A stretch of 64,000 nucleotides of DNA from positions 1 through 64,000 of the forward strand of contig WBOU01000017.1 of the NCBI GenBank assembly GCA_009268125.1, written 5' to 3'. A program made the translations under genes and the position numbers. The stretch comes from Chloroflexia bacterium SDU3-3. GTDB lineage: Bacteria; Chloroflexota; Chloroflexia; Chloroflexales; Roseiflexaceae. The first letter of the stretch is position 1; the number at the start of each line of letters is the position of its first letter. Of this stretch, positions 29,101 to 57,059 are shown piece after piece. Under the pieces are notes generated by a model. It saw nothing but the letters and a program-made list of their open reading frames with translations. It searched no databases and was not told the origin of the DNA.

Positions 29101-29295
29101 GAGCTGGGGGTTGAGGCGCTGCAAGGCGCTGCGCAGGCGCTCGGGGAGCACGACCTGCTCGTAGCTGGCGCGCTCGGCCTGCGGCTCGCCAGGGGCGATC
29201 TGGGGGCCGGAGAGCACGGTGTAGCCAACGCTCTCTAGCCAGGCGAGGGCGGCTCGTTCGACCATTGACTCGGTGAAATGTGAGCTTGGTTCCAT
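26179..29295 (-). CDS. hsdR: Type I restriction enzyme R subunit (HsdR)
   Basis: 1038 residues from the ATG at 29295, with GAGG seven nt upstream. The N-terminal nuclease has [20 protein letters not shown] (D...ELK, PD-(D/E)xK) then QTYK. The SF2 translocase follows: [11 protein letters not shown] (Walker A), [13 protein letters not shown] (DEAH), [10 protein letters not shown] (motif III region), and [13 protein letters not shown] (motif VI). HsdR forms R2M2S with HsdM and HsdS, pumps DNA and cuts at a distance from unmethylated sites. Length and motif order are normal. It closes a four-gene leftward operon. Confidence 0.95.
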
Positions 29296-29319
29296 AACGA
29301 CCTCATAGCTGGCTAGCAA

Positions 29320-30042
29320 TTATTCGGCATCTTCTTTAAACGCGCCAGATTCATACTCTGCCAATAAATCACTATAAGCATTGATATCAGTATAGAATAG
29401 CACTTCGCTGGCTTTATAAGGGTCAAGATTGAGAATTTTAATGCCCTCATCATGCTGATCATCTATAAATTGATTGAATTCTGGTTTGTCAGTATATGAT
29501 TTGCGAGGGGTTCTAGCTAATGGTCCAGCATAGTTTCTATGAACACGAAAAAGAAAATGAACTATAGCGTCTGCTGATCTCGCAACAAATTGTGCTTGGA
29601 TAGTGTCTGTAATACCTTGGTCATAAGCATCTTTACCATGAGATGCAAAACCACCTGCATTGCGAATTTCTGCCAAACTAAGAATGATAGTCGCAAATGA
29701 TTGTGTTGTCTTTCTTAAGTTCTCTGCTATTTTAGGGTCTACTTCTGTTTCATCAGGTAAAAATTGAAGTTTTTTGGTAGTTTCCTTGAATAGCTGAGGC
29801 ATGGTCCAATTTTTATCGATGGGATGGCCTCTATCAATAAGAATCGTACGACAAGTGGTTTCAACTAATGCCTTGGCAATATCAAAGGCAAGTTCAGGAT
29901 TCTTCTCAACAGCCTCCTCTAAAGCAACTACTTGGCGTTCGATCATGATAGCGCCTGCCGAAAGGGTAAGTATCTCTCGGCACCCACTTAATCGGAATTT
30001 ATTGTCAGGCAGCGCGGTGTTATCGGAGGTTGTTTCACTCAT
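29320..30042 (-). CDS. Abi_C-domain abortive-infection-like protein inside the R-M operon
   Basis: 240 residues. The C-terminal half (SFATIILSLAEIRNAGGFAS, HGKDAYDQ, RSADAIVHFLFRVH) matches the Abi_C pattern, in which an 'lRN..g..HG' stretch is followed by an A..A..l..fl helix. The N-terminal half (DIAKALVETTCRTILIDRGH) is helical. It starts with an ATGA overlap on hsdS and ends about 25 nt before hsdR, so it is made with the R-M enzyme. A back-up suicide arm or a modulator of the complex is plausible. AT-rich compared with hsdM and hsdR. Confidence 0.7.
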   Translation of the reverse strand: MSETTSDNTALPDNKFRLSGCREILTLSAGAIMIERQVVALEEAVEKNPELAFDIAKALVETTCRTILIDRGHPIDKNWTMPQLFKETTKKLQFLPDETEVDPKIAENLRKTTQSFATIILSLAEIRNAGGFASHGKDAYDQGITDTIQAQFVARSADAIVHFLFRVHRNYAGPLARTPRKSYTDKPEFNQFIDDQHDEGIKILNLDPYKASEVLFYTDINAYSDLLAEYESGAFKEDAE

Positions 30043-31316
30043 AGCAAAGGCTCCACATCGCGGACGCGCAGCTCGCCGGAGAGCAGGCGGGGCAGCAGCG
30101 TGTCGCGGAGTTCGGCGAGGGTGCGGGATTGCAGCTTAAGGTTTGTGATTTGATCAATCAATGGGGCTACAGTTCTATCTGCCAAATCCATCATCTGCGG
30201 TGTTGGGACAATAACTTTTGCCTGGGTGAGGTGATGCCGCTGGATATGGCCCATGGTTGTAGCTTTATCTGCCGCGATAGCTTGAAACCCTGGCAGATGG
30301 TAACGTGTCCAAAGGTAGTAAAACCACTTCGGATATATGTTTGATGTCACTTTGAACAAATGCTGGTTTAGCGCACCCTGACCACCACACCATAGTACAA
30401 CCTCTAGGCTCCCAGACCAAGAAAACAGGATATCGCCATCTTCAATAATATAGGCTTCGGGAATAGAAGGGCTGGCTTTATCGCTATCCTCGGTGCTTCC
30501 TTTGCGCATTTGTGCGATCTTGATAACCGGAAGGAACTCTTCATCTGTAGGAGGAAACTTTTGTAGCGCCAGCCCATTTAAGTAGGTGGCAATCTGATCA
30601 AGGTTTTTGACATCCCACCCCTGCGGCACCATGCGCCCGTCGACCTCCTCGAAGGCGGCGGGGAAGAGCGCGGCGGTAGCGGCGTCGAGGCCGACGGGGG
30701 CTTGGCCAGCGGCCTTGGTGCGGACGGGGTCGAAGTCGACGAACCAGGACTGGAAGATGGCGCGGGCGGTCTCCTCCAGGGTGGCGTTCATCTTGCGGTT
30801 TAGCTCGATCTTGTCGTCGAGCGAGCCGAGGACGCGGGCGATGGCGCGCTGCTCGGGGAGAGGGGGGAGAGAGACCTCGATCGACTTAAGGACATCTGTA
30901 TGAATTCGCCCAGTACCATGCGAGGCAGAATCAACCATCTTTAATAAAGTTGGTTTGTGCGCAAGAAACCAATAGGCAAGAAAATTGCTGTTGATGTTCT
31001 GATTTGGAATAATGGCTTTTACATCTTGATTGAAAGCCATATCTTGTTTGATTATGCAAATAGGTAAATCATTGTGCAATGTCATGCCTCGCACAAGCAA
31101 CAAAATCGATTCTGCCGGGGCTATTCTTGAACCATTTTGGACCCCTTCTTCAGTTAGGTGGTCTTCGGTATCGTGCAGGTAAAAACTCTTCATGTCCTTA
31201 GCACTAACCCAAGGAATATTACCTTCCCAAAATGTAGGATTAGCTTTGGATGGTGTCCCGCCCGAATACCACATGGAGCAATCTCCTAAGGTTGTACGTG
31301 TCCACTCACTCCCCAT
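30039..31316 (-). CDS. hsdS: Type I R-M specificity subunit (HsdS)
   Basis: 425 residues with two target-recognition domains. TRD1 starts [20 protein letters not shown]...PWVSAKDMK; the central conserved helix region has [20 protein letters not shown] and [16 protein letters not shown]2 starts near [17 protein letters not shown]; the end is [19 protein letters not shown]. The DNA coding the TRDs is visibly AT-rich while the two conserved helical regions are GC-rich like hsdM, as expected after TRD exchange. It overlaps the end of hsdM by 11 nt. Confidence 0.95.
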
Positions 31317-32949
31317 AGCCCACCCCCCGCAGACTCTCGCGGATCACCTGCTCCAGGCGCGCGCTCTCGGCGAACTGCTGGCTGAGCGTGGCGGTGAGGC
31401 GCTGCATCTTCTCCTCGAACGGCTCGCCCTCCTCCTCGGCCTCGGCGACGCCCACGTAGCGGCCAGGGGTGAGGACGTAGCCATGGGCGGCGATCTGCTC
31501 GGTGGTGGCCGAGGCGCAGAAGCCTGCCACATCGGCATACGCGCCCGCGCCCGGGTCGCCGCGCCAGGCGTGGTAGGCACCGGCGATCTGGGCGATGTCG
31601 TCCTCGGACAGCTCGCGGTGGACGCGGTCGACTAGGGAGCCGAGCTGGCGGGCGTCGATGAAGAGGGTGTGGCCTCGGCGGTCGCGGAAGCGGCCAGCGC
31701 CGCTCTTGTCGCGGGCGAGGAACCAGAGGCAGACGGGGATCTGGGTAGAGTAGAAGAGCTGGCCGGGGAGGGCGACCATGCAGTCGACGAGGTCGGCCTC
31801 GATGATGCTGCGGCGGATCTCGCCCTCGCCGGAGGTATTGGTGGACATGCTGCCGTTGGCCAGGACGAAGCCAGCCATGCCCGAGGGGGCGAGGTGGTGG
31901 ATGAAGTGCTGGACCCAGGCGAAGTTGGCGTTGCCGACGGGGGGCGCGCCGTACTTCCAGCGCACATCCTGGCGCAGGCGGTCGCCGCCCCAGTCGCTGT
32001 TGTTGAAGGGCGGGTTGGCCATCACATAGTCGGCGCGGAGATCCTTGTGCATGTCGCGGTGGAAGCTGTCGGCCTGCTCGGTGCCGAGGTTGCCGTCGAT
32101 GCCTCGGATGGCGAGGTTCATCCGGGCGAGCTTCCAGGTGGTGGGGTTGGACTCCTGGCCGTAGATGCTGATGTCGCCGATGCGCCCGCCGTGGGCCTCG
32201 ATGAACTTCTCGGACTGGACGAACATGCCGCCGGAGCCGCAGCAGGGGTCGAAGATGCGGCCCTTGTAGGGGGCGAGCAGCTCGACGAGGACGCGCACGA
32301 CGCTCTGGGGGGTGTAGAACTCGCCGCCGCGCTTGCCCTCGGCGCTGGCGAACTTGGAGAGGAAGTACTCGTAGACGCGGCCCAGGATGTCCTTGGAGCG
32401 GTTGGCGCGGTCGCCCAGGCCGATGGTGCCGATCAGGTCGATTAGCTCGCCGAGGCGCTGCTTGTCGAGGGCGGGGCGGGCGTAGTCCTTGGGGAGCACG
32501 CCCTTGAGGGCGGGGTTGTCGCTCTCGATTTTGACCATGGCGGTGTCGATGAGCCTGCCGATCTCGGGGGCCTTGGCGCTGCCCTGAAGGGTGGCCCAGC
32601 GGGCCTCGGGGGGCACCCAGAAGATGCCGTCGGCGCGGTACTCGTCGGGGTCCTCGGGGTCGGCCCCCTGATCCTGCTCGGCGAGGAGGGCCTGGTACTT
32701 CTCGTCGAAGGCGTCGGAGATGTACTTGAGGAAGATGAGGCCGAGGACGACGTGCTTGTACTCGGCGGCGTCCATATTGTTGCGGAGCTTGTCGGCGGCG
32801 GCCCAGAGGGTGTCCTCGAAGCCGAGGCTGGCGGCGCTGGCGGGCTTCTGGGCTGCGCGGGCTGGCGGCTGGGTCATGGGCTGCTCCAGTGGCAGAGGCG
32901 TCTGCTGTAGGGCCTGGGCGTCGGGCGCGATGCGGCGGACTTTTGGCAT
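31306..32949 (-). CDS. hsdM: Type I R-M adenine methyltransferase (HsdM)
   Basis: 547 residues. [20 protein letters not shown] is the usual N-terminal HsdM opening; motif [11 protein letters not shown] is at about 233-242, the catalytic NPPF at 312-315, and ATGS-like LANGSMSTN follows. It makes N6-methyladenine with HsdS. First gene of the operon; the 25 residues before MTQPPAR are Pro/Gln-rich and the true start could be there. Confidence 0.95.
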
Positions 32950-33108
32950 GGTTGCTGTATTTCTAAGCCGCGCGCTTGGCGCTGCGGTCTGTCTAGTGTT
33001 GCTTGGGAGCGCGGGATGGCCGCGCGGGTGGGGCTATGATACACCCAACTATGCTTTGCGGTCAAAAGGAAGCAATTAACCACGAAGGGGCGAGGTGGCG
33101 AGGGGTGA

Positions 33109-33129
33109 GGGCGGGCACGAGACCCGCCC
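33109..33129. repeat. Short GC-rich palindrome (REP-like)
   Basis: GGGCGGG-CACGAGA-CCCGCCC, 7-bp arms. Strings of this form, with the following CTACG, are scattered in intergenic regions of Chloroflexi. The surrounding 32950-33189 otherwise holds no gene. Confidence 0.5.
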
Positions 33130-33189
33130 CTACGGCGTGGGGTGGTGGTGGGAGCGCGCAATGGTTCGCTGTGGTCGAGATGATGGGTA

Positions 33190-34263
33190 CTAGCTGGATG
33201 GCTTGTCGCGCAACTGCTTGCCGCGTCTGATGAGGTCGTCCTCAATGGCTAACTGTTCGATAGCGCGTTTTTCCAGCAGTTTGTTCATCTGCTCAATTTC
33301 CGCTTGAGAGAGAAGCGTTTCCGTGCGGAGATTCTGCGTCTTTTTTTTAATGCTGTGCGCAATCCACACGTCTATAGGCGATTGATCAACATCTTTTTCT
33401 GCTATATTTTGATCTGAGGCGATAGCAATATATGGAGTCTGTTGAATACCCTGCCGGTCAAAATACACCTCTAACGCGCTTGCGTCGTCCTTCATGTTTA
33501 GTAGCTCTATCTGTTTATCAATGTTTTTCCAGCCTCTTTTTGTTTCTACGTACCAATGCTCTTTCTCAAACCGAATAGCACCACGCGCTGTAATCATTTG
33601 TATGACCCATACACCATAGGGGGCAACAAGTACCAGGTCGAACGCGCGAGAGGCCTGCGGTATGTATAGGCTTTGGTAGATTGTCCACTGATCGTCAAGG
33701 ACTTCACGAAGCCGCTCGACAATATGTGCTTGGGTTTTACGCCTTCGGCGGATCTCTAACCACGGCCTTAGTTTCCAAAAAACATAAAAGCTGCCGAAGG
33801 TGAGGCATATAAAAGGGGTGAATAAAGCAGTCCATATATCTTTATAATGTATATCAAATGCGAAAAAGACAAAATCTTTTATTGTAAGAAGAATAGCAAC
33901 AAGAGTAGCTGTTAGAATAGCAGCTATCTCTGCTTGATCTCTTTCATCCCGCTCGGTAAGCCAGTTGCTACAAACAACAAGGCGAGAGACATTGGGCTGA
34001 GCGAGATATGTTTTGTCAGCTAGTGTTTCTTCTGGTGTAGCAATATCGGCTGGATCATCGTCTACAAAAACACCGTAGGAACGCAGCTCCATTTTAATCT
34101 GAGCAATTTCTGAGCGTATATCTTGAATGCTTAGAATGACGTGTGAAGGCGTATGTATGCCCATCTGGGCTTTTTGCTCAAGCTCTATGTAAAGACGACG
34201 GCGGAAGATATCTAGCCGCTTCTTCCGGTGCTTACTATTCTCGTGTTCAGAAAGATCACTCAT
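33190..34263 (-). CDS. Membrane-anchored NERD-domain protein
   Basis: 357 residues from the ATG at 34263. Residues 24-73 (IELEQKAQMGI..., IRSEIAQIKMELRSYG, VFVDDDPAD) match the N-terminal module of the three giant NACHT proteins at 44-61 kb. Two membrane helices lie at about 115-170 (AAILTATLVAILLTIKDFVF, LFTPFICLTFGSFYVFWKL). Residues of about 190-270 are NERD-like (FDLVLVAPYGVWVIQMITA, then WYVETKRGWK); in NERD the region 'vDhvvvgpgGvfvie.K' carries catalytic Asp and Glu/Lys. Here Q-M replaces the usual E-x-K, so nuclease activity is uncertain. Medium-AT base composition. Likely an effector at the membrane. Confidence 0.65.
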   Translation of the reverse strand: MSDLSEHENSKHRKKRLDIFRRRLYIELEQKAQMGIHTPSHVILSIQDIRSEIAQIKMELRSYGVFVDDDPADIATPEETLADKTYLAQPNVSRLVVCSNWLTERDERDQAEIAAILTATLVAILLTIKDFVFFAFDIHYKDIWTALFTPFICLTFGSFYVFWKLRPWLEIRRRRKTQAHIVERLREVLDDQWTIYQSLYIPQASRAFDLVLVAPYGVWVIQMITARGAIRFEKEHWYVETKRGWKNIDKQIELLNMKDDASALEVYFDRQGIQQTPYIAIASDQNIAEKDVDQSPIDVWIAHSIKKKTQNLRTETLLSQAEIEQMNKLLEKRAIEQLAIEDDLIRRGKQLRDKPSS

Positions 34264-34447
34264 AGCTCTTTTCACCCTCCAACTCATGCTCCAGTTCCTT
34301 GGTAAGGCGGTTCTCGTCGCCCGCCAAGGCCTAGAGGTTGATGGCGGTGGTGGCGACGCTGCGGTGCCCGAGGCGGCGCTGGATCTCGGTGAGGGTCGCG
34401 CCCTTGGCGTCCATGGCCCACTGTCGAATAACAGTCCCTGTTACCAT
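34256..34447 (-). pseudogene. C-terminal remnant of a tyrosine recombinase
   Basis: ATG at 34447 opens VIRQWAMDAKGATLTEIQRR, then LGHRSVATTAINL and a TAG (34331-34333), then in frame ALAGDENRLTKELEHELEGE to a stop at 34256. LGHxSxxTTxxY is the end of phage-type integrases; the nucleophilic Tyr position reads Asn and is followed by a stop, so the protein is dead twice over. Its 5' part is gone. It lies exactly where element copy B begins. Confidence 0.75.
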
Positions 34448-34587: not shown

Positions 34588-35060
34588 CCCCGCACCTCTA
34601 CCGTGCCCCGCCGCCAGCCCATCGAGACCAGGTGCGGGTTGACGCCCAACACGGCGGACACCCAGCCCTTGTGCACCCACACCTCACCCGCCGCGTCCGC
34701 CACCTCGGTGAACGCCGCCAGCAGCACCGCCGCCCGCCCGAACCGCGCCGCGCGGGCCAGCGCCAGGGGCGGCGGCGCGGGGCAGGCCTCGGGCCGCTCG
34801 CCCCGCCACGCGGGCGCGATCTGCCCGCGCACCCCCCAGGGGCCGCAGCGCCGGACCTGCCCGATGATGCCCAGGGCCTGGAGCCGCCGCCAGCCCATCG
34901 AGACCGTGCGCGGGTTGACGCCTAGCACGGCGGCCACCCGGCCCTCATGCACTCGCACCTCGCCCGCCGCGTCCGCCGCCTCGTAGCACCAGGCGAGGAG
35001 CGCCACGTTCGCCCGCTGCCGCGCCGCTGGCAGCAGCCGCCCCAGCGGGATCGTGCCCAT
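34545..35060 (-). CDS. Truncated two-winged-helix protein, copy B
   Basis: 171 residues. The first 120 are nearly identical to the product of 18128-18721. The second HTH differs: ADAAGEVWVHKGWVSAVLGV replaces the copy-A second HTH and is a variant of the protein's own first HTH, so this half was overwritten by internal gene conversion or duplication. The end runs into foreign sequence (RPSLTPTWRLVVD). TGATG overlap with the next gene upstream is kept. May still be made, but is best seen as a damaged copy. Confidence 0.6.
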   Translation of the reverse strand: MGTIPLGRLLPAARQRANVALLAWCYEAADAAGEVRVHEGRVAAVLGVNPRTVSMGWRRLQALGIIGQVRRCGPWGVRGQIAPAWRGERPEACPAPPPLALARAARFGRAAVLLAAFTEVADAAGEVWVHKGWVSAVLGVNPHLVSMGWRRGTVEVRGRPSLTPTWRLVVD

Positions 35061-35341
35061 CAGCGCCGCCTCCGCGCGCGCGGCGGGGCGGGCGGGCGGC
35101 AGTCGGCCAGTGACACGCCGTAGACCGCCGGGGCCAGCTGGGCCAGCGCGCTGGGCGAGGTCTGCCCCCGTGCGGCCTCGCGGGCGAGCAGCCGCCGCAC
35201 CCGCGCCAGCTGGGCCGTGCGCAGCGCGGGCGGCTGGGCCAAAAAGTCCCGCCGCAGCAGCGCCACCGCCAGGCGCGGCGCGGCCTCCACCACCCACTGC
35301 GCGCTCACCGGGCTGTGCTCGTCCAGGTCACAATGCCTCAT
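35060..35341 (-). CDS. Conserved 93-aa element protein, copy B
   Basis: 93 residues, about five differences from the 18721-19002 product (PRLAVALLRRDFLAQPPALR is unchanged). Frame is intact and the TGATG junction downstream is preserved, so purifying selection or recent duplication is likely. Confidence 0.7.
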   Translation of the reverse strand: MRHCDLDEHSPVSAQWVVEAAPRLAVALLRRDFLAQPPALRTAQLARVRRLLAREAARGQTSPSALAQLAPAVYGVSLADCRPPAPPRARRRR

Positions 35342-35388
35342 GGCTCTCCTCCTCCGCGCCGCTGCGCTCAGGGGCGCGGGATTGCCGC

Positions 35389-36803: not shown

Positions 36804-36902
36804 GGCGATGGTCCTTTCGCTCGATAGGGGTGCTGCTTCCGATGGGCGGGGCGGCGGGGTGCGCTGCACGGGTGGGTGGCCGCCGATCCGACGCGGCGGG
36901 CA

Positions 36903-37118
36903 CTAGGCGGCCCGCCGCAGCTGGTCAAAGGCGATCTCGTCGCGGGCGGTCTCGGCCTCCAGCAGGCGGTCGAAGCTGCCGACGTAGCAGCCCTGAAACT
37001 CCAGGGCGTAGCCCGCATCTCGGCAGTAGGTGATGCGGTAGTCCTCGCCCGCCGCGACCTCGTGGATGCGCGGGGTGCGCGGCGGGCGGCGGGCGGGGTG
37101 GGTGCGGGTGGTGGGCAT
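36903..37118 (-). CDS. 71-aa conserved element protein, copy B
   Basis: 71 residues, about six differences from the 19433-19648 product; the core EDYRITYCRDAGYALEFQGC is identical. Behind its start lies a 20-bp perfect palindrome that is absent from copy A. Confidence 0.7.
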   Translation of the reverse strand: MPTTRTHPARRPPRTPRIHEVAAGEDYRITYCRDAGYALEFQGCYVGSFDRLLEAETARDEIAFDQLRRAA

Positions 37119-37137
37119 GGTGGGTTCCCCTCTACTA

Positions 37138-37184
37138 ACTAATGCAACTTCCTGCACCATATTAGTGCAGGAAGTTGCATTAGT
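37138..37184. promoter_or_regulatory. Perfect 20-bp inverted repeat before the 71-aa gene copy B
   Basis: ACTAATGCAACTTCCTGCAC, a 7-bp spacer, then the exact reverse complement. It lies in the 78-bp gap between the 71-aa and 66-aa genes, so it would sit in the leader or promoter of the 71-aa gene. Candidates: operator of the 66-aa HTH protein, an attenuator, or a recombination site. Confidence 0.65.
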
Positions 37185-37196: not shown

Positions 37197-37397
37197 CTAT
37201 TCAGTGGGTGGGCGAATATCCTTTGTCAAGGCCTCATCTAGCGCGGCTATCCTCTTGATCTTGACTACATGAGGTAAGGCGCGCCCACTGAGATACATTG
37301 CAATTGCTCGTTTAGAGCAACCTAATAGCTTGGCTCTTTCTTCATTTGTCGGAGCGAGTTCTCTCAACGCATTTACAAAATGAAGGTACTTGCCCAT
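37197..37397 (-). CDS. Small HTH regulator
   Basis: 66 residues. NALRELAPTNEERAKLLGCS, then KRAIAMYLSGRALPHVVKIK: a compact HTH reminiscent of XRE/CI-type proteins. It takes the place held in copy A by the RHH and 126-aa XRE genes, so the two element copies have different switch genes. AT-rich. Confidence 0.65.
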   Translation of the reverse strand: MGKYLHFVNALRELAPTNEERAKLLGCSKRAIAMYLSGRALPHVVKIKRIAALDEALTKDIRPPTE

Positions 37398-37526: not shown

Positions 37527-37952
37527 GTGGCCGAATCAGACGCACTACGCCTATATCTCATCACTCTGCGATCACGGCAAAACATCAGCCAAGATAAAGT
37601 GGCCGATACTATAGGTATGGCCCGCCGTACCTATAAAGCCTGGGAGCTTGGAGAAACCAAGGACATCAAAGTTCCGTGGGCAGTACGTGCAATTAAGTTT
37701 CTTGGGGGTTCGCTCGAACATCTTGGGATACTTGATACTGTTTCTGAGGAAGAGGGAGAGAAACTTGCCCTTGATTGGCTTGCACTCCCTCCCGATCAAC
37801 GAAATCCCCTGCCTGAGCAGAACCATCATGATTCAGTAAAACTTACCCATGTGATTGAGCGACTTCGAGCGGATGCTCAACATGACCCTTCAGTCCTTGA
37901 TATGGTCATCGCCTATCTTGATGGTCGACGCAGTTCGCGGCCTACACCCTGA
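37527..37952 (+). CDS. XRE-family regulator, duplicated gene copy B
   Basis: 141 residues with a GTG start (copy A uses ATG). Nearly identical to 20518-20943. Stands about 140 nt upstream of, and in line with, the AT-rich pair 38090-39039, as copy A stands upstream of ABC-3C. Confidence 0.8.
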   Translation: MAESDALRLYLITLRSRQNISQDKVADTIGMARRTYKAWELGETKDIKVPWAVRAIKFLGGSLEHLGILDTVSEEEGEKLALDWLALPPDQRNPLPEQNHHDSVKLTHVIERLRADAQHDPSVLDMVIAYLDGRRSSRPTP

Positions 37953-37964
37953 CAATGAATACAC
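37528..37964 (+). repeat. Direct repeat, copy B (XRE gene)
   Basis: Second copy of the 437-bp repeat at 20519-20955, again ending CAATGAATACAC. Confidence 0.8.
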
Positions 37965-38089
37965 AATCTCAACAATAAGTCAAAAACGCCTTCCCGGAAA
38001 TAGAATAATGCTATGGAAGTCTACAAATCAAAATATAGAACCATACTATTGTGGTTTTCTGATTCTCGTAGCTATTTGAGGGTTCACCC

Positions 38090-38638
38090 ATGAAACATAG
38101 TTTTGGTAGCTTTTTATGGATAGGGGTAACCAAAGCTAACTCATTCATTGGGGGGTTCATATCTATTTTCATAAGTATTCTTGTTGCTTACATATCAAGC
38201 AATATTTGGTATGGAATCATTCTATCTATTATCTTCTTCCTTTCTGTACTAGTTTATGTATTTTCATACACTTCATATGAAATATATAAGGCGTACGAGA
38301 AAGAATTTATATTAGCCAAAAAGATGTCACTTCCTAGAATAATCAGAGCGCAGCGCCCTCCACCTTCCATGTTACAGGCTAGCGCTTTATGCTTAACTGA
38401 ATCTTCAGACCTATTCTCATATGGTATTGGCGTTTCCTTTTATAACATTGATGAAGATGGATTTGAGAAACTAATTGGTCTTGGTAAAGTTGAGAATGTT
38501 CAGGAGGACAAAAGACTCCAAATCACAATACTTCATATTATAGAAGGCCACGAGAATATTATTGAGAGACTTTTGCAAAACGAAAGTAGAGTTTTGGAAA
38601 ACACAAGAGTCAAACCAAACGCGCCTTTAGATATATAA
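38090..38638 (+). CDS. Membrane protein of an AT-rich two-gene cassette
   Basis: 182 residues. Two membrane helices near the N-terminus (FIGGFISIFISILVAYIS, YGIILSIIFFLSVLVYVFS) are followed by a soluble domain with ASALCLTESSDLFSYGIGVS and FEKLIGLGKVENVQEDKRLQ, beta-rich and possibly ligand-binding. I do not recognise the family. Strongly AT-rich, and preceded by the duplicated XRE gene. With the next gene it forms a two-gene unit of unknown function that I suspect is a defence cassette. Confidence 0.65.
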   Translation: MKHSFGSFLWIGVTKANSFIGGFISIFISILVAYISSNIWYGIILSIIFFLSVLVYVFSYTSYEIYKAYEKEFILAKKMSLPRIIRAQRPPPSMLQASALCLTESSDLFSYGIGVSFYNIDEDGFEKLIGLGKVENVQEDKRLQITILHIIEGHENIIERLLQNESRVLENTRVKPNAPLDI

Positions 38639-38667
38639 TAAACTATTTTATATAAAGGAGAAAACCT

Positions 38668-39039
38668 ATGAGTGAATTAATTCCTCATATATTTCCAGCA
38701 CTCATTGCAGAAGTTATAGACAGATACACTGTCGTTATTAATCGAGGTTCAAAACACAAAATACAGCTTGGTCAAAAATTTATTATATATACTTTGACAG
38801 ATAAAGAAATTCTCGATCCGATCACTCGTGAATCTCTTGGCAAGCTTGAGGTACCTAAAGGAACGGGAAAGGTGATACATGTTCAAGAAAGATTAGCTAC
38901 GATTAAGTCTGATAGAACGACAACAATAAAAAAACCAAGAACTCCACTAGAATGGCAAAGGAATCAAGAACCAGAAGAGCAAACCATTTTTTCACCTTTT
39001 GATGAACCAATAGTCGGAGATAGGGCAAAACCAATATAA
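38668..39039 (+). CDS. Soluble partner of the two-gene cassette, FlgT-C/OB-like fold
   Basis: 123 residues behind AAGGAG. AEVIDRYTVVINRGSKHKIQ, LGQKFIIYTLTDKEILDP and KLEVPKGTGKVIHVQERLAT show alternating strands with the 'iNrG..hGv..Gd.f.vy' phrase of small beta-barrel domains (FlgT C-terminal-like). The last 35 residues are disordered and acidic. Only 29 nt behind the membrane gene. Confidence 0.65.
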   Translation: MSELIPHIFPALIAEVIDRYTVVINRGSKHKIQLGQKFIIYTLTDKEILDPITRESLGKLEVPKGTGKVIHVQERLATIKSDRTTTIKKPRTPLEWQRNQEPEEQTIFSPFDEPIVGDRAKPI

Positions 39040-39563: not shown

Positions 39564-39679
39564 CCTGGGCTGGGGCAAGAGCGTGGCATCACCCCATGAG
39601 CGCTCCGCTTTGTTCGCATCTCTGTGCTAAGATAGGAAGCACATACGGCACTGATGGTAGGGATTGGACAACGGACACC

Positions 39680-41191
39680 ATGCTTGAGACGACGTCTTTC
39701 ACCACACGGATTGATCAGCGGCGGCTTGCCGCAAGTAGCATCTTAGATCCAAAGCTGCGGGCCGAACGCGGGCAATTTCTCACGCCGGGGCCGATCGCGC
39801 GCTTTATGGCCTCCCTCTTCCAGCCTGCCACTGAGGCTATCCATCTTCTGGATGCCGGGGCAGGCGTCGGCTCGCTCACCGCTGCTGCCGTCGCCACCCT
39901 GTGCCAGCAGACGCCCGCTCCCCGCACCATCGCGGCGACCGCCTACGAGATCGACCACCAGCTCACCCCCTACCTGGAGGAGACGCTGGCCGATTGCGCC
40001 GCGCTCTGCGCCGAACGCCACGTTCGTTTCGCATCGTCGCTGCGCTCCACCGATTTCATTGCCCACGGTGCGCAGCAGCTCTTTATGCGCACCGCCGCAG
40101 AGGCCACCTTCACCCACGCGATTCTGAACCCGCCCTATCGGAAGATCACCACGCACTCCGCCGACCGACAGCACCTTCGGTCGATCGGCATCGAGACCAG
40201 CAACCTCTACGCGGGCTTTCTCGCACTCGCCATCAAGCTGCTGGCCCCAGGTGGCGAGCTGGTAGCGATTGTGCCCCGCAGTTTCTGCAACGGCCCCTAC
40301 TTCCGGCCCTTCCGGCAGCTGCTGCTCAAAGAGATGGCGCTCACCCACATCCATCTCTTTGAGAGTCGCACCGACGCCTTCCGAGACGATGGCATCCTTC
40401 AGGAAAACATTATCTTCCACGCGATCAAGCAGCAAACGGTGCCCACGGTGATCATCTCACGCTCTGCGGGCGCAGATCTCGCCCACAGTGAACGCCGTCT
40501 CGTCTCCGCGCATGAGATTGTGCACCCGAGCGACCCAGACCAGATGATCCACATCACCGCCGATTCTGACGCCCAGCTGCTGGTCCGGCAGATGCAGGAC
40601 CTCCCCTGCACCCTCGCGGATCTGGGCATCGATGCCTCAACCGGCCCCGTGGTCGATTTCCGCCTTGCCGACTTTCTGCGCGCGATGCCCGCATCTGATA
40701 GCGTGCCGCTTATCTATCCCCAACATTGCCGCGACTACCACGTTCACTGGCCGCTCCCTGGGGCAAAAAAGCCCAATGCCCTCGATGATCACCCACAAGT
40801 CCGCAAGTGGCTCTACCCGAATGGACACTATGTGGTAGTCCGGCGGCTCTCATCGAAAGAGGAACCACACCGCATTGTGGCCAGCCTCTATGATCCCGCC
40901 CGTATTCCCGGCGATTGGATCGGCTTTGAGAACCACCTGAATGTGTTCCATCAGGATCGACATGGGCTCGCACCAGACCTCGCGCTTGGGCTCACACGCT
41001 ATCTCAACACGACGCTAGTCGATATCTGCTTCCGCCAGTTCAGCGGCCACACCCAGGTCAACGTCAGCGACCTGGCCCGGCTGCGCTACCCGACCGCCGA
41101 GGCGCTCGCCCAGCTGGGCAGACGAGATGCACCGCAGATCATGCCGGATCAGCGCACCCTTGATACGTGGCTTGGAGAAATAGTGTCATGA
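39680..41191 (+). CDS. BsuBI/PstI-type adenine-N6 DNA methyltransferase
   Basis: 503 residues from the ATG at 39680. ERGQFLTPGPIARFMASLF precedes motif I LLDAGAGVGSLT at 56-67; the catalytic NPPY is at 150-153 (ILNPPYRKI). Length, order and linkage fit M.BsuBI/M.PstI, which methylate A in CTGCAG. The endonuclease gene follows with an ATGA overlap. Confidence 0.88.
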   Translation: MLETTSFTTRIDQRRLAASSILDPKLRAERGQFLTPGPIARFMASLFQPATEAIHLLDAGAGVGSLTAAAVATLCQQTPAPRTIAATAYEIDHQLTPYLEETLADCAALCAERHVRFASSLRSTDFIAHGAQQLFMRTAAEATFTHAILNPPYRKITTHSADRQHLRSIGIETSNLYAGFLALAIKLLAPGGELVAIVPRSFCNGPYFRPFRQLLLKEMALTHIHLFESRTDAFRDDGILQENIIFHAIKQQTVPTVIISRSAGADLAHSERRLVSAHEIVHPSDPDQMIHITADSDAQLLVRQMQDLPCTLADLGIDASTGPVVDFRLADFLRAMPASDSVPLIYPQHCRDYHVHWPLPGAKKPNALDDHPQVRKWLYPNGHYVVVRRLSSKEEPHRIVASLYDPARIPGDWIGFENHLNVFHQDRHGLAPDLALGLTRYLNTTLVDICFRQFSGHTQVNVSDLARLRYPTAEALAQLGRRDAPQIMPDQRTLDTWLGEIVS

Positions 41192-42207
41192 CCGATTCCA
41201 CCATCACCGACATCGACATCAGCGGCAACCATGGGAAGAAACTCGCCGAAGCACAACACATCCTTGAATCACTCGGCTTTCCCGCAGGACAGCGCAATGT
41301 CCGATCAGCACTCACGCTCCTGGCGCTCCTCGATATGCAGCCCAACCACGATTGGGCCGCAGCCAGCAACCCACCGATGGGGATAACGCCAATCCTTCAG
41401 TGGGCGGAAAAACACTACGCGGTGCGCTATGCCCCCAACACGCGCGAGACGATCCGCAAAGACACCATGCACCACTTTGTCGAGGCGGCGCTGGCCATCG
41501 CCAACCCGGATCAGCCCAACCGCCCAACCAACAGCCCAAAGTGGCACTACCGCATCGAACCAGCCGCATTAGCGCTTATTCGCACCTTTGGCACCAACGC
41601 GTGGCCGTCGCAGCTCGCCCGCTACCTCACCGAGCGGGTCGGACTCCAAACGCGCTATGCCGACATCCGGAACATGGCCCGTATCCCCGTCCAGATTCCA
41701 GGCGGAAAAGAAATCACCCTGAGCCCTGGCAACCATAGCGCCCTGATCAAAGCGATCATTGATGAGTTCGCACCACGTTTTCTTCCTGGCAGCCACCTCA
41801 TCTATGTGGGCGATACCGGAGACAAGTGGGGATTCTTTGATGAGCAGCGACTTCACGACCTCGGGGTGGTTATCGACGCCCATGGCAAAATGCCCGATGT
41901 CATTTTCTACTACGAGGCAAAACACTGGCTTGTCCTGGTCGAGTCGCTCACCAGCCGAGGCCCCGTGGATGGCAAGCGGCACGACGAACTTGCCCGCCTA
42001 TTCGGGAAAAGCACCGCAGGTATTGTCTATGTGACCGCGTTCCCAACCCGTAAAGGCCTCGCCCGCTACGTCACCCAGATCTCTTGGGCGACCGAAGTGT
42101 GGGTTGCGGAAGCAGCCGATCACCTCATCCATTTCGATGGCGAGCGCTTCCTCGGCCCCTATCCGACCACCCCAAAAAAAGATACGAACGGCGAGCCATC
42201 GGCATAA
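41188..42207 (+). CDS. BsuBI/PstI-type II restriction endonuclease
   Basis: 339 residues from the ATG at 41188, which overlaps the methyltransferase stop. The C-terminal catalytic domain has GDTGDKWGFFDEQRLHDLGV, then MPDVIFYYEAKHWLVLVESL and TSRGPVDGKRHDEL, the signature of BsuBI/PstI endonucleases (Asp...Glu...Glu metal site). The N-terminal half is a helical DNA-binding domain. Expected target CTGCAG, if specificity is as in the family. Confidence 0.88.
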   Translation: MTDSTITDIDISGNHGKKLAEAQHILESLGFPAGQRNVRSALTLLALLDMQPNHDWAAASNPPMGITPILQWAEKHYAVRYAPNTRETIRKDTMHHFVEAALAIANPDQPNRPTNSPKWHYRIEPAALALIRTFGTNAWPSQLARYLTERVGLQTRYADIRNMARIPVQIPGGKEITLSPGNHSALIKAIIDEFAPRFLPGSHLIYVGDTGDKWGFFDEQRLHDLGVVIDAHGKMPDVIFYYEAKHWLVLVESLTSRGPVDGKRHDELARLFGKSTAGIVYVTAFPTRKGLARYVTQISWATEVWVAEAADHLIHFDGERFLGPYPTTPKKDTNGEPSA

Positions 42208-43020: not shown

Positions 43021-43275
43021 ATGTCGCCCATCTCGCCTGCCACGCTCCGCGCCCTTGGCGATGCCAGCGCGCTCCGCGCCCTGCTCGCCGCGCTCGGCTT
43101 CCGCCCCGTCGCCCACACCATCCTCACGGCGGAGACCCTGGGCTGGGGCGAGCGCGTGGCGGTCGACCTGCGGGGCCGCGCCTTCGCGCTGCTGGCCGAC
43201 GCCGACGACGGCTCCTTCCAGGTGCTGCTGCTGCTGCCCCAGGCGGGCGCGGCGGAGCTGGACTATCGCCTCTGA
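43021..43275 (+). CDS. 84-aa hypothetical protein, the intact member of three copies
   Basis: 84 residues. LRALGDASALRALLAALGFR, then WGERVAVDLRGRAFALLADA and FQVLLLLPQAGAAELDYRL. Small alpha/beta protein of unknown function. Broken relatives lie at 25009-25176 and 48340-48462, each followed by the same flank, so this is a repeated unit spread through the region. Confidence 0.6.
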   Translation: MSPISPATLRALGDASALRALLAALGFRPVAHTILTAETLGWGERVAVDLRGRAFALLADADDGSFQVLLLLPQAGAAELDYRL

Positions 43276-43589
43276 CCACCCTGCATCGCAACCTGCGCCC
43301 TGATGCTGCCAGATCTCCCGCAGGCTGGCCCCAGCGCAATCACCGCGCTGGCTGGCCGCTCCCCAGCAAAACTACTCTTATGTCGTGCTCATCATGACCC
43401 GCAGTGTGTACCCCGCCCACGGCGAACCCATGCTCAGCCCCGCTCCTCGGCCTGAGCAGCATCGCGCCGTCGGTGCACTGACAACGCTCGGTGATACGGC
43501 GACGGGGCCGGGGGCGTGGTAGGCTTATCGCACACAAGAATCTGTCAGGTATCGGCGGCACTCCAACGCGGCCACGCCCAAAAGGACAC
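43276..43589. other. Repeated intergenic flank
   Basis: 43282-43400 matches 25167-25270 and 48468-48580; 43480-43590 matches the leader of the companion gene at 56640-56740 and 48665-48740 (ATCGCA.ACAAG.ATCTGTCAGGT form). No coding frame of its own. Confidence 0.55.
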
Positions 43590-43877: not shown

Positions 43878-46800
43878 CTACGGCCAGCACGCGGCCACAT
43901 CCCGCACTGCGCGGACGATCTCAGCCCGCTCCTCGGGCGTGGTGAGCGCGGCGACCCAGGGCATGAGCGCGGCGAGGTCGCTGAACAGATCGCGGCGGCC
44001 TCGGGCGGTAAGGGTGTGGAGGAGGGGAAGGAGGGTGGCGCGGGGGAAGTGGTGGGATGCGCATTGAGGAGCCAAACATGCGAATATTTCGGCCCGCCCC
44101 CCCGCGCCCCCGATGCCCCGTGCCGCCGCCAGCGCCTCGCACACCAAACCCTCCGGCAGGTGCGGCGCAAAACCCGCCAGCGCCCGCGCCCGCCACCTCT
44201 CGTCCCCGATCCCTCGTGCCACCGCCAGCGCCTCGCACACCAAATCCTCCGGCAGGTGCGGCGCAAGACCCGCCAGCGCTTCCGCCCGATCCCCCTCATC
44301 CCCGATCCCCAGTACCAACACCAGCGCCTCGCGCACCAAACTCTCCGGCAGGTGCGGCGCAAGACCCGCCAGCGCCCGCGCCCGCCACCACTCATCCCCG
44401 ATCTCCCGTGCCACCGCCAGCGCGGCGCGCACCAAACCCTCCGGCAGGTGCGGCGCGATCATCTCCAAGATACGCACCCGCCACCACTCATCCCCGATCT
44501 CCCGTGCCACCGCCAGCACGGCGCGCACCAAACCCTCCGACAGGTGCGGCGCGATCATCTCCAAGATACGCGCCCGCGCCCGCTCATCCCCGATCCCCCG
44601 TGCCACCGCCAGCGCCTCGCGCACCAAACCCTTCGGCAGGTGCGGCGCGATCATCTCCAAGATACGCACCCGCCACCACTCATCCCCGATGCCCCGTGCC
44701 ACCGCCAGCGCGGCGCGCACCAAACTCTCCGACAGGTGCGGCGCAAGACCCGCCAGCGCCCGCGCCCGCTCATCCCCAATCCCCCACGCCTCACCCCACA
44801 CCGCACCCTGCTCCCACTTCGGCAGGTGCGGCGCAAGACCCGCCAGCACTATCGCCCGCGATCCCGCATCCCCAATCCCACGTCCCAACGCCAGCGCCTC
44901 ACCCCACACCGCACCCTGCTCCCCCTCCGGCAGGTGCGGCGCGATTTTCCCCAGCGCAGAAGCCCGCCCCCCCTCGTCCCCGATCCTCCGTGCCAACGCC
45001 AACGCCTCGCCCCACACCGCACCCTGCTCCCCCTCCGGCAGGTGCGACGCAAGACCCGCCAGCACTATCGCCCGATCCCTCTCATCCCCGATCCTCCGTG
45101 CCAACGCCAGCGCCTCGCCCCACACCGCACCCTGCTCCCCCTCCGGCAGGTGCGGCGCGATCATCTCCAACATACGCGCCCGCTCATCCCCGATCCCCCG
45201 TACCGCTGCCAGCGCCTCGCCCCACACCGCACCCTGCTCCCCCTCCGGCAGGTGCGGCGCGATATCCACTAACGCACTCGCCCGATCCCTCTCCTTCCCG
45301 ATCCCTCGTGCCAACGCCAGCGCCTCGCCCCACACCGCACCCTGTTCCCCCTCCGGCAGGTGCGACGCAAGACCCGCCAGCGCAAAAGCCCGCGCCCGCT
45401 CATCCCCGATCCCCCGTACCGCTGCCAGCGCCTCGCCCACCAAACCCTCCGGCAGGTGCGGCGCGATCCCCACTAACGCACTCGCCCGATCCCCCTCGGA
45501 CCCGATCCCCCCTGCCGCCGCCAGCGCCTCGCCCACCAAACCCTCCGGCAGGTGTGGCGCAAGCCCTGCCAGCACCCTCGCCCGATCCCCCTCGGACCCG
45601 CCCCCCCCTGCCGCCGCCAGCGCCTCGCCCCACACCGCACCCTGCTCCCCCTCCGGCAGGTGCGGCGCAAGACCCGCCAGCGCAAAAGCCCGATCCCACT
45701 CATCCCCGATCGCCCGTGCCGCCGCCAGCGCCTCGCACCACACTGCACCCTGCTCCCCCTCCGGCAGGTGCGGCGCAAGGCCCGCCAGCGCACTCGCCCG
45801 ATCCCACTCGGACCCGATCCCCTGTGCCATCGCTAATGCCTCGCACCACACCGCACCCTGCTCCCCCTCCGGCAGATGCGGCGCAAGGCCCGCCAGCGCA
45901 CTCGCCCGATCCCGCTCATCCCCGATCGCCCGCGCCGCCGCCAGCGCCTCATCCCACACTGCACCCTGCTCCCCCTCCGGCAGGTGCGGCGCAAGGCCCG
46001 CCAGCGCACTCGCCCGATCCCGCTCATCCCCGATCGCCCGCGCCGCCGCCAGCGCCTCGCCCACCAATCTCTCCGGCAGATGCGGTGCAAGACCCGCCAG
46101 CGCCCGCGCCCGCACCCACTCGTCCCCAATCCCTCGTGCCGCTGCCAACAGTGGCACCATATCCATCACCGCACCACTCTCTGCCAGCGCCTGAATGGCA
46201 TCAGCTTGCCGCTGTTCACCTGGCATCTGGCGAATGTGCTCAATCACCGCAGGAATACTCCACTTCCCCTCCGGCGTCCCAACGGTCACCAGGCCCACAA
46301 GCAATTTCGGAGAGAGGTTCCCACTCAAGCTGCGGATGCTTGCCGCAATCAGCGCACACCGAATCGCCAGCACGAGATCCTGCTGCTGTTCGGCATGCCC
46401 CCACAGCCGATCAAGGTCGGTCAGATAGCCTGCGTAGCTCCCCTCTGCGGCGTAGCGCGCGGCTGACCAAGGCTGGACCGTGCGCGTCTGCACCGCTACG
46501 ACCTCGGTCAGCACCATGCGCGCCTTGTCCCACGCCCCCGCCGCCACCAGATGGGCCACCCAGAACTGGCGCAGGTAGGTTGGGATCGGCTGGGCCTGGG
46601 GATCACGGCAGTATGCCGCGTAGCCGCGCTCGCCATAGGCTACAAAGCGTGCTTGGAAGTTCTCGCGTTCACGCCGCGAGAGCACCCGCTCGCCAAACAG
46701 CTCGCGCAGACGCGGGTGGCTGAAAACATACCCCGCCGCCACACTCCCATCCCCGATGAGCACCCGCGCGACCACTCCAGCGGTCTGCTTCAGCCCCGCG

Positions 46801-48164
46801 CCGTGCGGAAAAACCTCGGGCGCGAGTTCCATCACATCCTCGCTCGTGAGCGGCCCGAGCGCCACTGCGCACAGCCCCAGCAGGGTGCGGATGCCCGCGT
46901 GCTGCGCGCTCTTCGCCTCCAGATCCGCAAGCCACTCCTGCACGAATGCTTCTAGGCCCGGCGTCATCGCGGTCAGCTTTTTTGGCTGGAGGTCGCCGTC
47001 CCGCAGTGCCTCGATCAGCATGCGGATGGTCAGCGGGTCGCCCTGACTGATGCGCCCGATCTCCTTAATGAAGTCCACATCCGTCGCCAGGTCGTCGAGC
47101 GGGTTCCCCATGCGCACCAGAATATCCTGTACCGCCGCATCGTCTAGACCTGTCAGCGGCACCCGCCACACCAGATCCTTCCGCCAGTCCAGATCCCGCA
47201 GCCAGTCATTGAGGGTTTTGTGCGCGACCTGCCGCGCGGCGCAGACCACCCGCAGCCGCGCGGGCGGCGTGCGCGGGAACAGTCCGGCTCTCAGCTCCCA
47301 GCCCACCGCCTCATCCAGGCCATCGAGCACAAGGAGCACATGCTGCCCCTCCAGCGGCGGGCGGCGCAGGTAGTCCGCGCTGATGGCCCGCAGGTCCTCC
47401 GGGGTCTGGCGGTAGCCGTCGAATGCTGCCTGCTCGCCGTAGATGGTCGCCAGCGCGAGCGCGAGGGTCCGAAACACCACATCGGCGGCGGCGGTCTGGT
47501 AGCGGATGCTGATCGGCACGAAGATCACCTGCCACCCGCCGCGCGCGTGCACCTGGATGGCCCACTGGATGAGCAGCGCGGTCTTCCCGCGCCCCGTGGG
47601 GGCCAGCAGCAGCGCGTAGGGCGTGGCCGCGTGGAGGAAGGCATCGAGCTGGGCCAGCTCCGCCGCGCGCCCACCGAAGATCTCGGTGTAGATCTCCAGC
47701 ATGGAGCGTACCTGCGGGCGGGAGCTGAAGGGGAAGGGCTGGACGAGGGCCTCAATCGGCGTGGTCGGCGCAGGGCTGGGGGGATATACGGGAGCGGAAG
47801 CAGGTGGGGGCGGGGTAGCGTAGGTGATATTCACGGAGCCAGTCGTGTTGATCACATTTCCATCCACCTGCCAGCTCGGCTGATTGAATGGTGCAGCGGA
47901 CCCATGCGCAGGGGCCGCAGCGTCTGGCAGGGGCGGCACAGCGGGGGCGAGGTCATCCGGGTGGTCATCAACGATCTCCCCCCAGCCGCGCAGCACCGCC
48001 TTGATCCGCGCGATCTCCGCACGAGCGTGGTCGCGGGTTGCGATCTGCCCTGGTAGCGCATACACATCACTCTGCTGCGCGATCTGCCGTAGCATCGCTG
48101 CCAACGTCGCCCGGTGGTCCGCCAGCAGTCGCCGCTGTCCCTGGATATCCTCAACTCGCCCCAT
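43878..48164 (-). CDS. Giant NACHT STAND ATPase with 20 HEAT-like repeats, paralogue 1
   Basis: 1428 residues, start chosen at MGR... (48164), the start common to all three paralogues, behind AGGTGG. Residues 1-71 form the N-terminal module shared with the NERD protein (RAEIARIKAVLRGWGEIVDD). Residues 93-113 hold a beta-prone motif (FNQPSWQVDGNVINTTGSVN). The NTPase has Walker A LAPTGRGKT (187-195) and Walker B VLLVLDGLDEA (277-287). From about residue 690 there are 20 two-helix repeats of 36 (LPEGEQGAVWGEALALAR) or 32 residues (LPEGLVGEALAAAR), then a conserved cap ending VRDVAACWP. The repeats are the most uniform of the three paralogues, DNA included, so the array is probably still expanding. 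Likely an NLR-type sensor; the ligand is unknown. Confidence 0.85.
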   Translation of the reverse strand: MGRVEDIQGQRRLLADHRATLAAMLRQIAQQSDVYALPGQIATRDHARAEIARIKAVLRGWGEIVDDHPDDLAPAVPPLPDAAAPAHGSAAPFNQPSWQVDGNVINTTGSVNITYATPPPPASAPVYPPSPAPTTPIEALVQPFPFSSRPQVRSMLEIYTEIFGGRAAELAQLDAFLHAATPYALLLAPTGRGKTALLIQWAIQVHARGGWQVIFVPISIRYQTAAADVVFRTLALALATIYGEQAAFDGYRQTPEDLRAISADYLRRPPLEGQHVLLVLDGLDEAVGWELRAGLFPRTPPARLRVVCAARQVAHKTLNDWLRDLDWRKDLVWRVPLTGLDDAAVQDILVRMGNPLDDLATDVDFIKEIGRISQGDPLTIRMLIEALRDGDLQPKKLTAMTPGLEAFVQEWLADLEAKSAQHAGIRTLLGLCAVALGPLTSEDVMELAPEVFPHGAGLKQTAGVVARVLIGDGSVAAGYVFSHPRLRELFGERVLSRRERENFQARFVAYGERGYAAYCRDPQAQPIPTYLRQFWVAHLVAAGAWDKARMVLTEVVAVQTRTVQPWSAARYAAEGSYAGYLTDLDRLWGHAEQQQDLVLAIRCALIAASIRSLSGNLSPKLLVGLVTVGTPEGKWSIPAVIEHIRQMPGEQRQADAIQALAESGAVMDMVPLLAAARGIGDEWVRARALAGLAPHLPERLVGEALAAARAIGDERDRASALAGLAPHLPEGEQGAVWDEALAAARAIGDERDRASALAGLAPHLPEGEQGAVWCEALAMAQGIGSEWDRASALAGLAPHLPEGEQGAVWCEALAAARAIGDEWDRAFALAGLAPHLPEGEQGAVWGEALAAAGGGGSEGDRARVLAGLAPHLPEGLVGEALAAAGGIGSEGDRASALVGIAPHLPEGLVGEALAAVRGIGDERARAFALAGLASHLPEGEQGAVWGEALALARGIGKERDRASALVDIAPHLPEGEQGAVWGEALAAVRGIGDERARMLEMIAPHLPEGEQGAVWGEALALARRIGDERDRAIVLAGLASHLPEGEQGAVWGEALALARRIGDEGGRASALGKIAPHLPEGEQGAVWGEALALGRGIGDAGSRAIVLAGLAPHLPKWEQGAVWGEAWGIGDERARALAGLAPHLSESLVRAALAVARGIGDEWWRVRILEMIAPHLPKGLVREALAVARGIGDERARARILEMIAPHLSEGLVRAVLAVAREIGDEWWRVRILEMIAPHLPEGLVRAALAVAREIGDEWWRARALAGLAPHLPESLVREALVLVLGIGDEGDRAEALAGLAPHLPEDLVCEALAVARGIGDERWRARALAGFAPHLPEGLVCEALAAARGIGGAGGRAEIFACLAPQCASHHFPRATLLPLLHTLTARGRRDLFSDLAALMPWVAALTTPEERAEIVRAVRDVAACWP

Positions 48165-48252
48165 CGCCCACCTCGCTCCACAAGATGCTTCCCCAGGCCC
48201 GCGCATCGCCGTTGGGCGCGGCGCATGTCACCGCACAACGACCCATATGCGT

Positions 48253-48282
48253 ATCATAGATCAGCGGGACGGAGTTTGGGAA
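48253..48282 (-). promoter_or_regulatory. Conserved promoter of giant NACHT gene 1
   Basis: On the minus strand TTCCCA (48282-48277), 18 bp, then TATGAT (48258-48253). The same arrangement with 18-bp spacing precedes paralogues 2 and 3, inside otherwise diverged leaders. Confidence 0.6.
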
Positions 48283-48339
48283 GATGGGAACCCGCGAGCA
48301 ATCGCACGCCCACCGACGTTCACCTAGTACACCAGGGCC

Positions 48340-48462
48340 TCGACGAGCGCGTGGCGGTCGACCTACGAAGCGGCGCACGCACTGCTGGCCGACGGCGGCG
48401 TCTTCCTGGTGCGACCACTGCTACCCCAGGCGGGCGCAGCGGAACTGGACTGCCGCCACTAA
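48340..48462 (+). pseudogene. Decayed copy of the 84-aa gene
   Basis: DNA matches the core of 43021-43275 (GCGTGGCGGTCGACCT at about 48349, CCCCAGGCGGGCGCAGCGGA at about 48424, ending TAA), but small deletions put the pieces in different frames. Confidence 0.7.
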
Positions 48463-48770
48463 CAACCCTGTGCCCTGATGCTGCCAGATCTCTTTCTCAC
48501 AGGCTGCCTCTGTCGTGATCGCCGCACTGGCTGGGCATCCTCGGCAAACCCACCGTTATGTCGTGCCGCCTGTAGTGTGCGTTGTTCGCCTCGCTGGAGG
48601 CCGCACCCACGGCGACCCGATACTCGACCCTGATATCCCCGATGTGGACATCTTCGCGCCATCGGTGGTGTGGCGGCGGTGCTGGGGCGTGGTCAACTCA
48701 TTGCGTTCAAGGACACGTCAGACGCATCCCAACCGGAGACTCATCGGCGCAACCGACTACCGCCACCCAC
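48463..48770. other. Repeated intergenic flank before the NB-ARC gene
   Basis: 48468-48580 repeats 43282-43400, and 48665-48740 repeats the companion-gene leader of 43480-43590 and 56640-56740. Here the companion gene itself is missing and an unrelated NB-ARC gene follows. Confidence 0.55.
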
Positions 48771-48799
48771 TTCTTTGCGCGAAGCACGCATGCTATACT
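48771..48799 (+). promoter_or_regulatory. Promoter of the NB-ARC/TPR gene at 48864
   Basis: TTCTTT at 48771-48776, 17 bp, extended -10 TGCTATACT ending at 48799. The string TGCTATACTCGTT is the same as that before the NB-ARC gene starting at 8753. Confidence 0.6.
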
Positions 48800-48863
48800 C
48801 GTTTATGAACGCAGAACATAAGCTCCCAACGACCCGCACCCATCTGAACGGAAAGACCGCACC

Positions 48864-51254: not shown

Positions 51255-51270
51255 CCCCCAACACACACAA

Positions 51271-51302
51271 ACGCGCCGCTGGTCCTGCGACCAGCGGCGC
51301 GT
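51271..51302 (+). terminator. Hairpin after the NB-ARC/TPR gene
   Basis: Perfect 14-bp stem ACGCGCCGCTGGTC/GACCAGCGGCGCGT around CTGC, 17 nt past the stop. No T-run, so efficiency is uncertain. Confidence 0.65.
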
Positions 51303-57055: not shown

Positions 57056-57059
57056 CGGC

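Follow-up and report, generated by a model that had tools for sequence, protein, structure and literature searches.

The analysed stretch of DNA, hereafter the window, comprises 64,000 nucleotides of contig WBOU01000017.1 of Chloroflexia bacterium SDU3-3. Between 20 and 42 kb it is a dense defence island, in which two sets of cargo genes, termed slot A and slot B, each follow a copy of the same XRE-family regulator gene. The following features were assigned (border segments carry no strand):

14490-17028, minus strand: DnaC/IstB-like ATPase and HTH_36 winged-helix protein; these gene types also lie left of the XRE-headed slot in related genomes
20388-20522, plus strand: truncated N-terminal remnant of another XRE gene, 51% identical to the slot XRE of related genomes
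20518-20943, plus strand: duplicate XRE gene of slot A, start codon ATG
21137-24779, plus strand: slot A cargo, ABC-3C/Lamassu-type system with CTD7, MC3 and DUF3732 ATPase (Pfam, PADLOC)
34697-35354: left backbone segment of slot B, 96% identical to 18358-19015
36848-37142: left backbone segment of slot B, 90% identical to 19377-19674
37527-37952, plus strand: XRE-family regulator, left border of cargo slot B, duplicate of 20518-20943 (HTH_3, 2.8e-5), start codon GTG
38090-38638, plus strand: membrane protein with two transmembrane (TM) helices, 182 aa (hydropathy, AlphaFold2 model; no Pfam family at E ≤ 1)
38668-39039, plus strand: soluble FlgT_C-like small beta-barrel protein, 123 aa, no signal peptide (model, profiles)
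39648-42207, plus strand: remaining slot B cargo, BsuBI/PstI-type restriction-modification (R-M) system (Pfam, PADLOC)
43143-43389: right border segment of slot B, repeated at 25020-25260 (82%) and 48344-48566 (73%)

The two XRE genes are 96.1% identical over 437 nt (20519-20955 and 37528-37964; blastn, E = 0) and are the only copies in the host genome (6.76 Mb). The start of the slot A copy was set at 20518; a longer ORF from 20452 overruns upstream. Homology begins at the start codon and ends 12 nt past the stop codon, and the next start codon follows the XRE stop after 193 nt in slot A and 137 nt in slot B. An earlier examination of the letters alone, the sequence-only reading, had pointed out that near-identical XRE genes precede unrelated AT-rich cargos and that the duplicated stretch ends right after the XRE stop. 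Both observations proved accurate, yet the duplication also continues farther out, with paired segments in the same order on the left flank and a paired border on the right. Because the flanks are paired on both sides, each cargo occupies a slot of a duplicated segment, with the XRE gene at its left edge. No further copies of the slot were detected in the host genome, where the border segments, trivial matches aside, are confined to the window. The truncated XRE remnant at 20388-20522 ends where the duplicate XRE gene (20518) begins; it looks as though an older slot gene had been the insertion site of cargo A.

Slot A encodes a C-terminal-domain protein (CTD7, 2e-38), a middle component (MC3, 3e-39) and an SMC-like ATPase (DUF3732, 3e-52) in one operon, which in PADLOC terms corresponds to Lamassu LmuA/C/B, and the ABC-3C cargo recognized earlier was thereby verified. 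ABC-3C has been placed within the Lamassu superfamily by a review (PMC10586767). It holds the XRE-headed slot equivalent to that of the pair 38090-39039, the proteins of the two are unrelated, and the pair is thus an alternative cargo and not a component of such a system. In slot B, the XRE gene is followed by the pair (38090-38638 and 38668-39039) and then by the BsuBI/PstI-type R-M genes, an Eco57I-like N6 methylase extending to 41191 and a BsuBI_PstI_RE domain from about 41167; the methylase start at 39648 is an approximate choice inside an ORF opening at 39491.

Several neighbouring features were recorded. The region between the slots (26179-34287) contains a type I R-M set (HsdR, HsdS, HsdM) and a NERD protein, with an Abi_C-domain gene between HsdR and HsdS. 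A perfect 20-nt inverted repeat (ACTAATGCAACTTCCTGCAC / GTGCAGGAAGTTGCATTAGT, 7-nt spacer), unique in the window, is located at 37138-37184 between two minus-strand genes and adjoins a 66-aa HTH protein (37197-37397); it is a candidate operator or terminator. The minus strand of 43878-61391 encodes three paralogues (1440-1540 aa) that combine an AAA/STAND-like ATPase with extended arrays of near-identical repeats, spaced at 96 and 108 nt. A TPR protein (48864-51254) and an NB-ARC protein (5247-8780) were found in the same window.

XRE-headed slots recur in related genomes. In G034, G110 and G043, which belong to another genus of the same order, an XRE gene about 30% identical to that of the window (P0001) forms the left edge of a swap site, the flanks of which are 92-96% identical on both sides. 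G110 is 93% identical to G034 throughout, and both carry a C5 methylase and a HATPase restriction enzyme (REase_II) as cargo. G110 and G043 share 92% identity up to about 320 nt past the XRE stop, and this identity resumes at the right-hand gene; the cargo in between is unrelated and consists in G043 of a PD-T4-6-like kinase and two further ORFs. Left of the XRE gene, a DnaC/IstB-like ATPase and an HTH_36 protein are present, as left of slot A. Conserved flanks with unrelated cargo right after the XRE gene were therefore found in the window as well as for G034/G110 versus G043, and other known cargos of these slots include defence systems, which supports the pair as defence cargo. At locus level, the C5 methylase is followed by the GHKL/HATPase restriction enzyme as swapped cargo behind the XRE gene (L113:3843-6717 and L112), and the PD-T4-6-like kinase by proteins of 404 and 155 aa, which have no Pfam or PADLOC match (L111:2042-4720). 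A survey of slots with distant XRE genes (L142-L154) returned, for the most part, short contigs or surroundings resembling phages; by eye, L143 is followed by a toxin-antitoxin-like pair and L152 by an Mrr-like fragment, and none of this was used as evidence.

The sequence-only reading had proposed that the pair is an undescribed defence cassette controlled by the XRE regulator. The second half of this proposal was not supported: relatives of the pair elsewhere occur without this XRE gene, and promoter-like sites downstream of the XRE gene are at chance level. Since the XRE gene heads swapped cargos, it belongs to the slot and does not travel with the pair; it is a slot-border regulator, not a dedicated partner. 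The first half was retained as probable, as the pair matches no catalogued defence system, is conserved and is often found in defence-linked contexts, as detailed below.

The GC content of the pair is 35%, compared with 64% for the window, and a ribosome-binding site (AAAGGAG) precedes the soluble barrel gene at 38668. In the membrane protein, a TM hairpin of N-in orientation spans about residues 18-59, its extracytoplasmic loop being about 6 residues long; a long cytosolic helix and a small beta-barrel (residues 81-181) follow. By hydropathy, two TM helices with a joining loop of 6-14 residues are present in all 22 of 22 homologues. In these 22 proteins, Lys/Arg residues number 45 ahead of the helices, 15 between them and 52 behind them; following the positive-inside rule, both ends are therefore placed in the cytosol. 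AlphaFold2 models built from homologue alignments reached a pLDDT of 90.2 for the TM protein and 89.5 for the soluble barrel. Thus, the two-helix membrane protein and the small beta-barrel-like partner described from the sequence were both confirmed.

The barrel of the TM protein superposes on the N-terminal barrel of V-ATPase B (Z 9.7, 73 residues, 1.9 Å), and the model of the soluble barrel on FlgT (Z 11.1) and on V/F-ATPase N-terminal barrels (Z about 10). Both superpose on the N-terminal crown barrels of F1/V1-ATPases at about 1.6-2.0 Å over 66-74 residues; the pair differs from these enzymes in having no ATPase domain, and the likeness is one of fold, sequence homology not being demonstrated. 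Based on the models, both proteins are confidently predicted to carry the same class of barrel, of the rotary-ATPase/FlgT type, although no sequence homology of one barrel to the other emerged when the profiles of the two families were compared (hhalign 5%). The partner in Haladaptatus has an apparent barrel-like segment after the TM hairpin, as judged by eye. A fold search in BFVD gave no useful match.

The profile of the soluble barrel matches TsaP (3.5e-9); the barrel shows resemblance to FlgT_C, TsaP and MreC domains. Half of the barrel members (14 of 28) match FlgT_C in Pfam, the window barrel with 21.2 bits, below the gathering cut-off of 27, whereas all 28 match PHROG 27728, which has no assigned function. 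In PADLOC 2.0.0, no match was obtained for the soluble barrel and only CARF8--CARF_TM (E = 0.064) for the TM protein. With a sub-threshold FlgT_C match for one protein, no Pfam family for the other and absence from PADLOC, the pair appears to be undescribed, as had been suspected. The literature search, which mostly did not extend to subscription literature and preprints, returned no paper describing the pair and none linking FlgT, PF16538 or PHROG 27728 to anti-phage function.

Relatives were searched in one genome per species for 84,980 species, which yielded about 20 full-length barrel relatives, and viral contigs added more; a seven-member alignment was too divergent for scans of the collection. 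The pair was found in archaea, cyanobacteria, proteobacteria, Firmicutes and Bacteroidetes as well as on small plasmids and in temperate phages. The barrel hosts are an uncultured archaeon, Laspinema, Microcystis, Rhodoferax, Veillonella, Clostridium, Lachnospiraceae, Eubacteriales, Micavibrio, SAR202, Sporosarcina, Bacteroidetes, Magnetococcales, Campylobacterales and Thiomargarita. Among plasmid-borne relatives, those of Psychrobacter and Megaera are about 40-50% identical, and those of Glutamicibacter and Haladaptatus are more diverged. The window barrel is about 50% identical to the cyanobacterial and Psychrobacter-plasmid barrels, and identity to the archaeal pair amounts to 41% for the TM protein and 50% for the barrel. 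Within Chloroflexota, the TM protein is clear in one of 400 genomes, that of the window itself, with one other weak match. As the pair is this rare in the phylum yet widespread elsewhere, it was most likely gained by horizontal transfer.

A 2-TM gene lies immediately upstream at nearly all full-length barrel loci, with an intergenic spacing of -17 to +29 nt at 19 of the 20 loci measured. A mirror-tree comparison across 22 loci gave r = 0.72, a value reached in none of 2000 permutations, and close pairs have a dN/dS of about 0.14-0.33. The two genes form a conserved unit and diverge in step under purifying selection. Variants were also seen: some Microcystis genomes have a tandem barrel duplicate behind a single 2-TM gene near chlH (L022:5892-7366), the Psychrobacter plasmid has a third small gene after the pair with one TM stretch and no family match (L007:5464-5940), and the Geitlerinema locus (L031) is a degraded copy without partner. 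Most of the loci L039-L077, except L040 and L072, are FlgT/CsgG-like lipoproteins as far as they were read, and not members of the family.

Many relatives adjoin defence genes or reside on mobile DNA. In Micavibrio, the pair is embedded in a type III R-M operon in the order Mod-2TM-barrel-Res, with overlaps of 4 nt (with Mod) and 11 nt, and a PDC-S06-type ATPase lies upstream. A DNA methylase follows the pair in SAR202, and a type ISP R-M gene precedes it in a Chloroflexota relative with a helical TM partner (L005). On the Glutamicibacter plasmid, a CAP12/Pycsar TIR effector is located directly upstream. The Haladaptatus megaplasmid has genes for an AAA protein and for a nuclease of the Mrr type downstream. 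Staphylococcus phage phi575 has the order cI-barrel-Abi-integrase (Abi as annotated), and in many Firmicutes prophages a barrel gene and a TM/coiled-coil partner are found between the repressor and the integrase. The neighbourhoods of 23 independent full-length loci were classified by reading: 9 loci lie in a phage or integrative element, 2 on a plasmid and 3 within two genes of an R-M system, one adjoins an IS1 transposase and one a candidate defence ATPase, and 7 have no such neighbour. The latter include the cyanobacterial loci by chlH and those of Rhodoferax, Thiomargarita and Veillonella by housekeeping genes. Mainly housekeeping contexts, along with no phage phenotype, had been named beforehand as the outcome that would refute a defence role; in part this was seen, about one third of the loci having no defence or mobile neighbour. 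A comparison of neighbours gave 149 matched PADLOC families among 87 neighbours of the pair versus 26 among 87 control neighbours (FlgT-like lipoprotein loci from the same scan). The comparison is crude, since methylases match many PADLOC models and the control loci are ordinary chromosomal genes.

Two TM helices with a cytosolic domain are also found in known effectors of conflict systems, namely SLATT, Csx23 and the 2-TM effectors of CBASS. The TM protein shares this architecture and the defence context, but it has no Pfam or PADLOC match to them, the Pfam SLATT model included, and its cytosolic domain is a barrel of the rotary-ATPase type; a relation to SLATT in fold may nevertheless exist. 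FlgT (C-terminal domain PF16538) and TsaP contain the same small beta-barrel, there as domains of larger exported proteins, whereas the barrel of the pair stands alone (about 110-150 aa), has no signal peptide and has a membrane partner. In the Vibrio motor, FlgT makes up a ring in the periplasm (PMC7693769); the window protein, a single domain of 123 aa without N-terminal hydrophobic stretch, does not have the multi-domain, signal-peptide-bearing form of that family. Closest in organization are RexABpp (PMC12894663) and Sbash gp30/gp31 (PMC6426596), in which a prophage encodes a soluble protein together with a membrane effector. Like RexAB of lambda, they are adjacent prophage genes, for which the roles of sensor and effector have been proposed. 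However, RexB and gp31 have four TM helices and RexA and gp30 a DUF4747 motif, while the pair combines a 2-TM protein with a cytosolic barrel (two helices in each of the 22 homologues) and a barrel partner matching essentially only FlgT_C; no sequence relation is detectable. Due to these differences in topology and domains, the pair stands outside that family.

Judged from its sequence and surroundings, the pair is probably an undescribed part of microbial immunity with a role in defence. By analogy, it is best read as RexAB-like in logic, not in sequence, i.e., as a membrane-acting cassette which would serve phage defence or superinfection exclusion. The more specific form of this reading, a mobile two-gene anti-phage cassette of the abortive-infection or superinfection-exclusion type at the inner face of the cytoplasmic membrane, has slightly less than an even chance of being correct. 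In such a cassette, the two barrels would bind each other and form a membrane-tethered oligomer, which is suggested because barrels of this kind pack into rings in rotary ATPases and FlgT. The soluble barrel would be a sensor or gatekeeper, sensing a signal or restraining its partner, and on infection the TM hairpins may permeabilise the membrane or block entry of phage DNA.

Superinfection exclusion proper is a rather unlikely alternative, but the strongest one. Here, a constitutive 2-TM protein would block DNA entry of related phages or plasmids, stabilised by the barrel and with no triggered killing. The position between repressor and integrase in many temperate phages, the usual place of such genes, and the occurrence on small plasmids fit this explanation, but a generic effector is more consistent than a receptor-specific block with the very broad host range, including archaea and Gram-positives, and with the insertion in a type III R-M operon. 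A toxin-antitoxin or addiction module, in which a 2-TM toxin is checked by the downstream barrel and which serves plasmid and prophage maintenance, is clearly improbable: the two small, close genes, the hydrophobic first product and the strong presence on mobile elements speak for it, but the barrel has no DNA-binding domain, the usual type II modules differ in gene order and sizes, and a restriction operon encloses one of the copies. As a toxin-antitoxin unit could also be a defence system, this explanation overlaps with the defence cassette. A housekeeping or envelope role as a cytosolic membrane scaffold, proposed by analogy to the FlgT, TsaP and MreC barrels which the soluble barrel resembles, would suit the copies beside chlH and other core genes and would reduce the proximity to defence genes to a reflection of mobile DNA, but it is equally improbable: the pair is sporadic (one of 400 genomes in the phylum), is carried by phages and plasmids and has no signal peptide, whereas FlgT acts in the periplasm.

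The defence cassette also has a bolder form, which we consider unlikely. In this form, the pair would constitute a new class of membrane immune effector common to bacteria, archaea, plasmids and phages: the barrel of the TM protein and the free barrel would alternate in a cytosolic ring resembling the crown of rotary ATPases and keep the TM hairpins shut, as a pore or gate, until the ring is remodelled by a phage signal. The rotary-ATPase-type barrel is a common small fold; therefore, the match alone does not imply a ring. Should the pair protect against phages, it would be an unnamed defence unit across bacteria, archaea and temperate phages, which defence catalogues miss because its proteins are small and have no domain models. 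Its rotary-ATPase-type barrels, paired on a membrane anchor of two helices, would then also make it an effector of unfamiliar design. The XRE-headed slot of Chloroflexota offers a practical route to further systems, since known defence genes make up, or form part of, three of the four cargo types seen so far, the fourth being the pair together with an R-M system.
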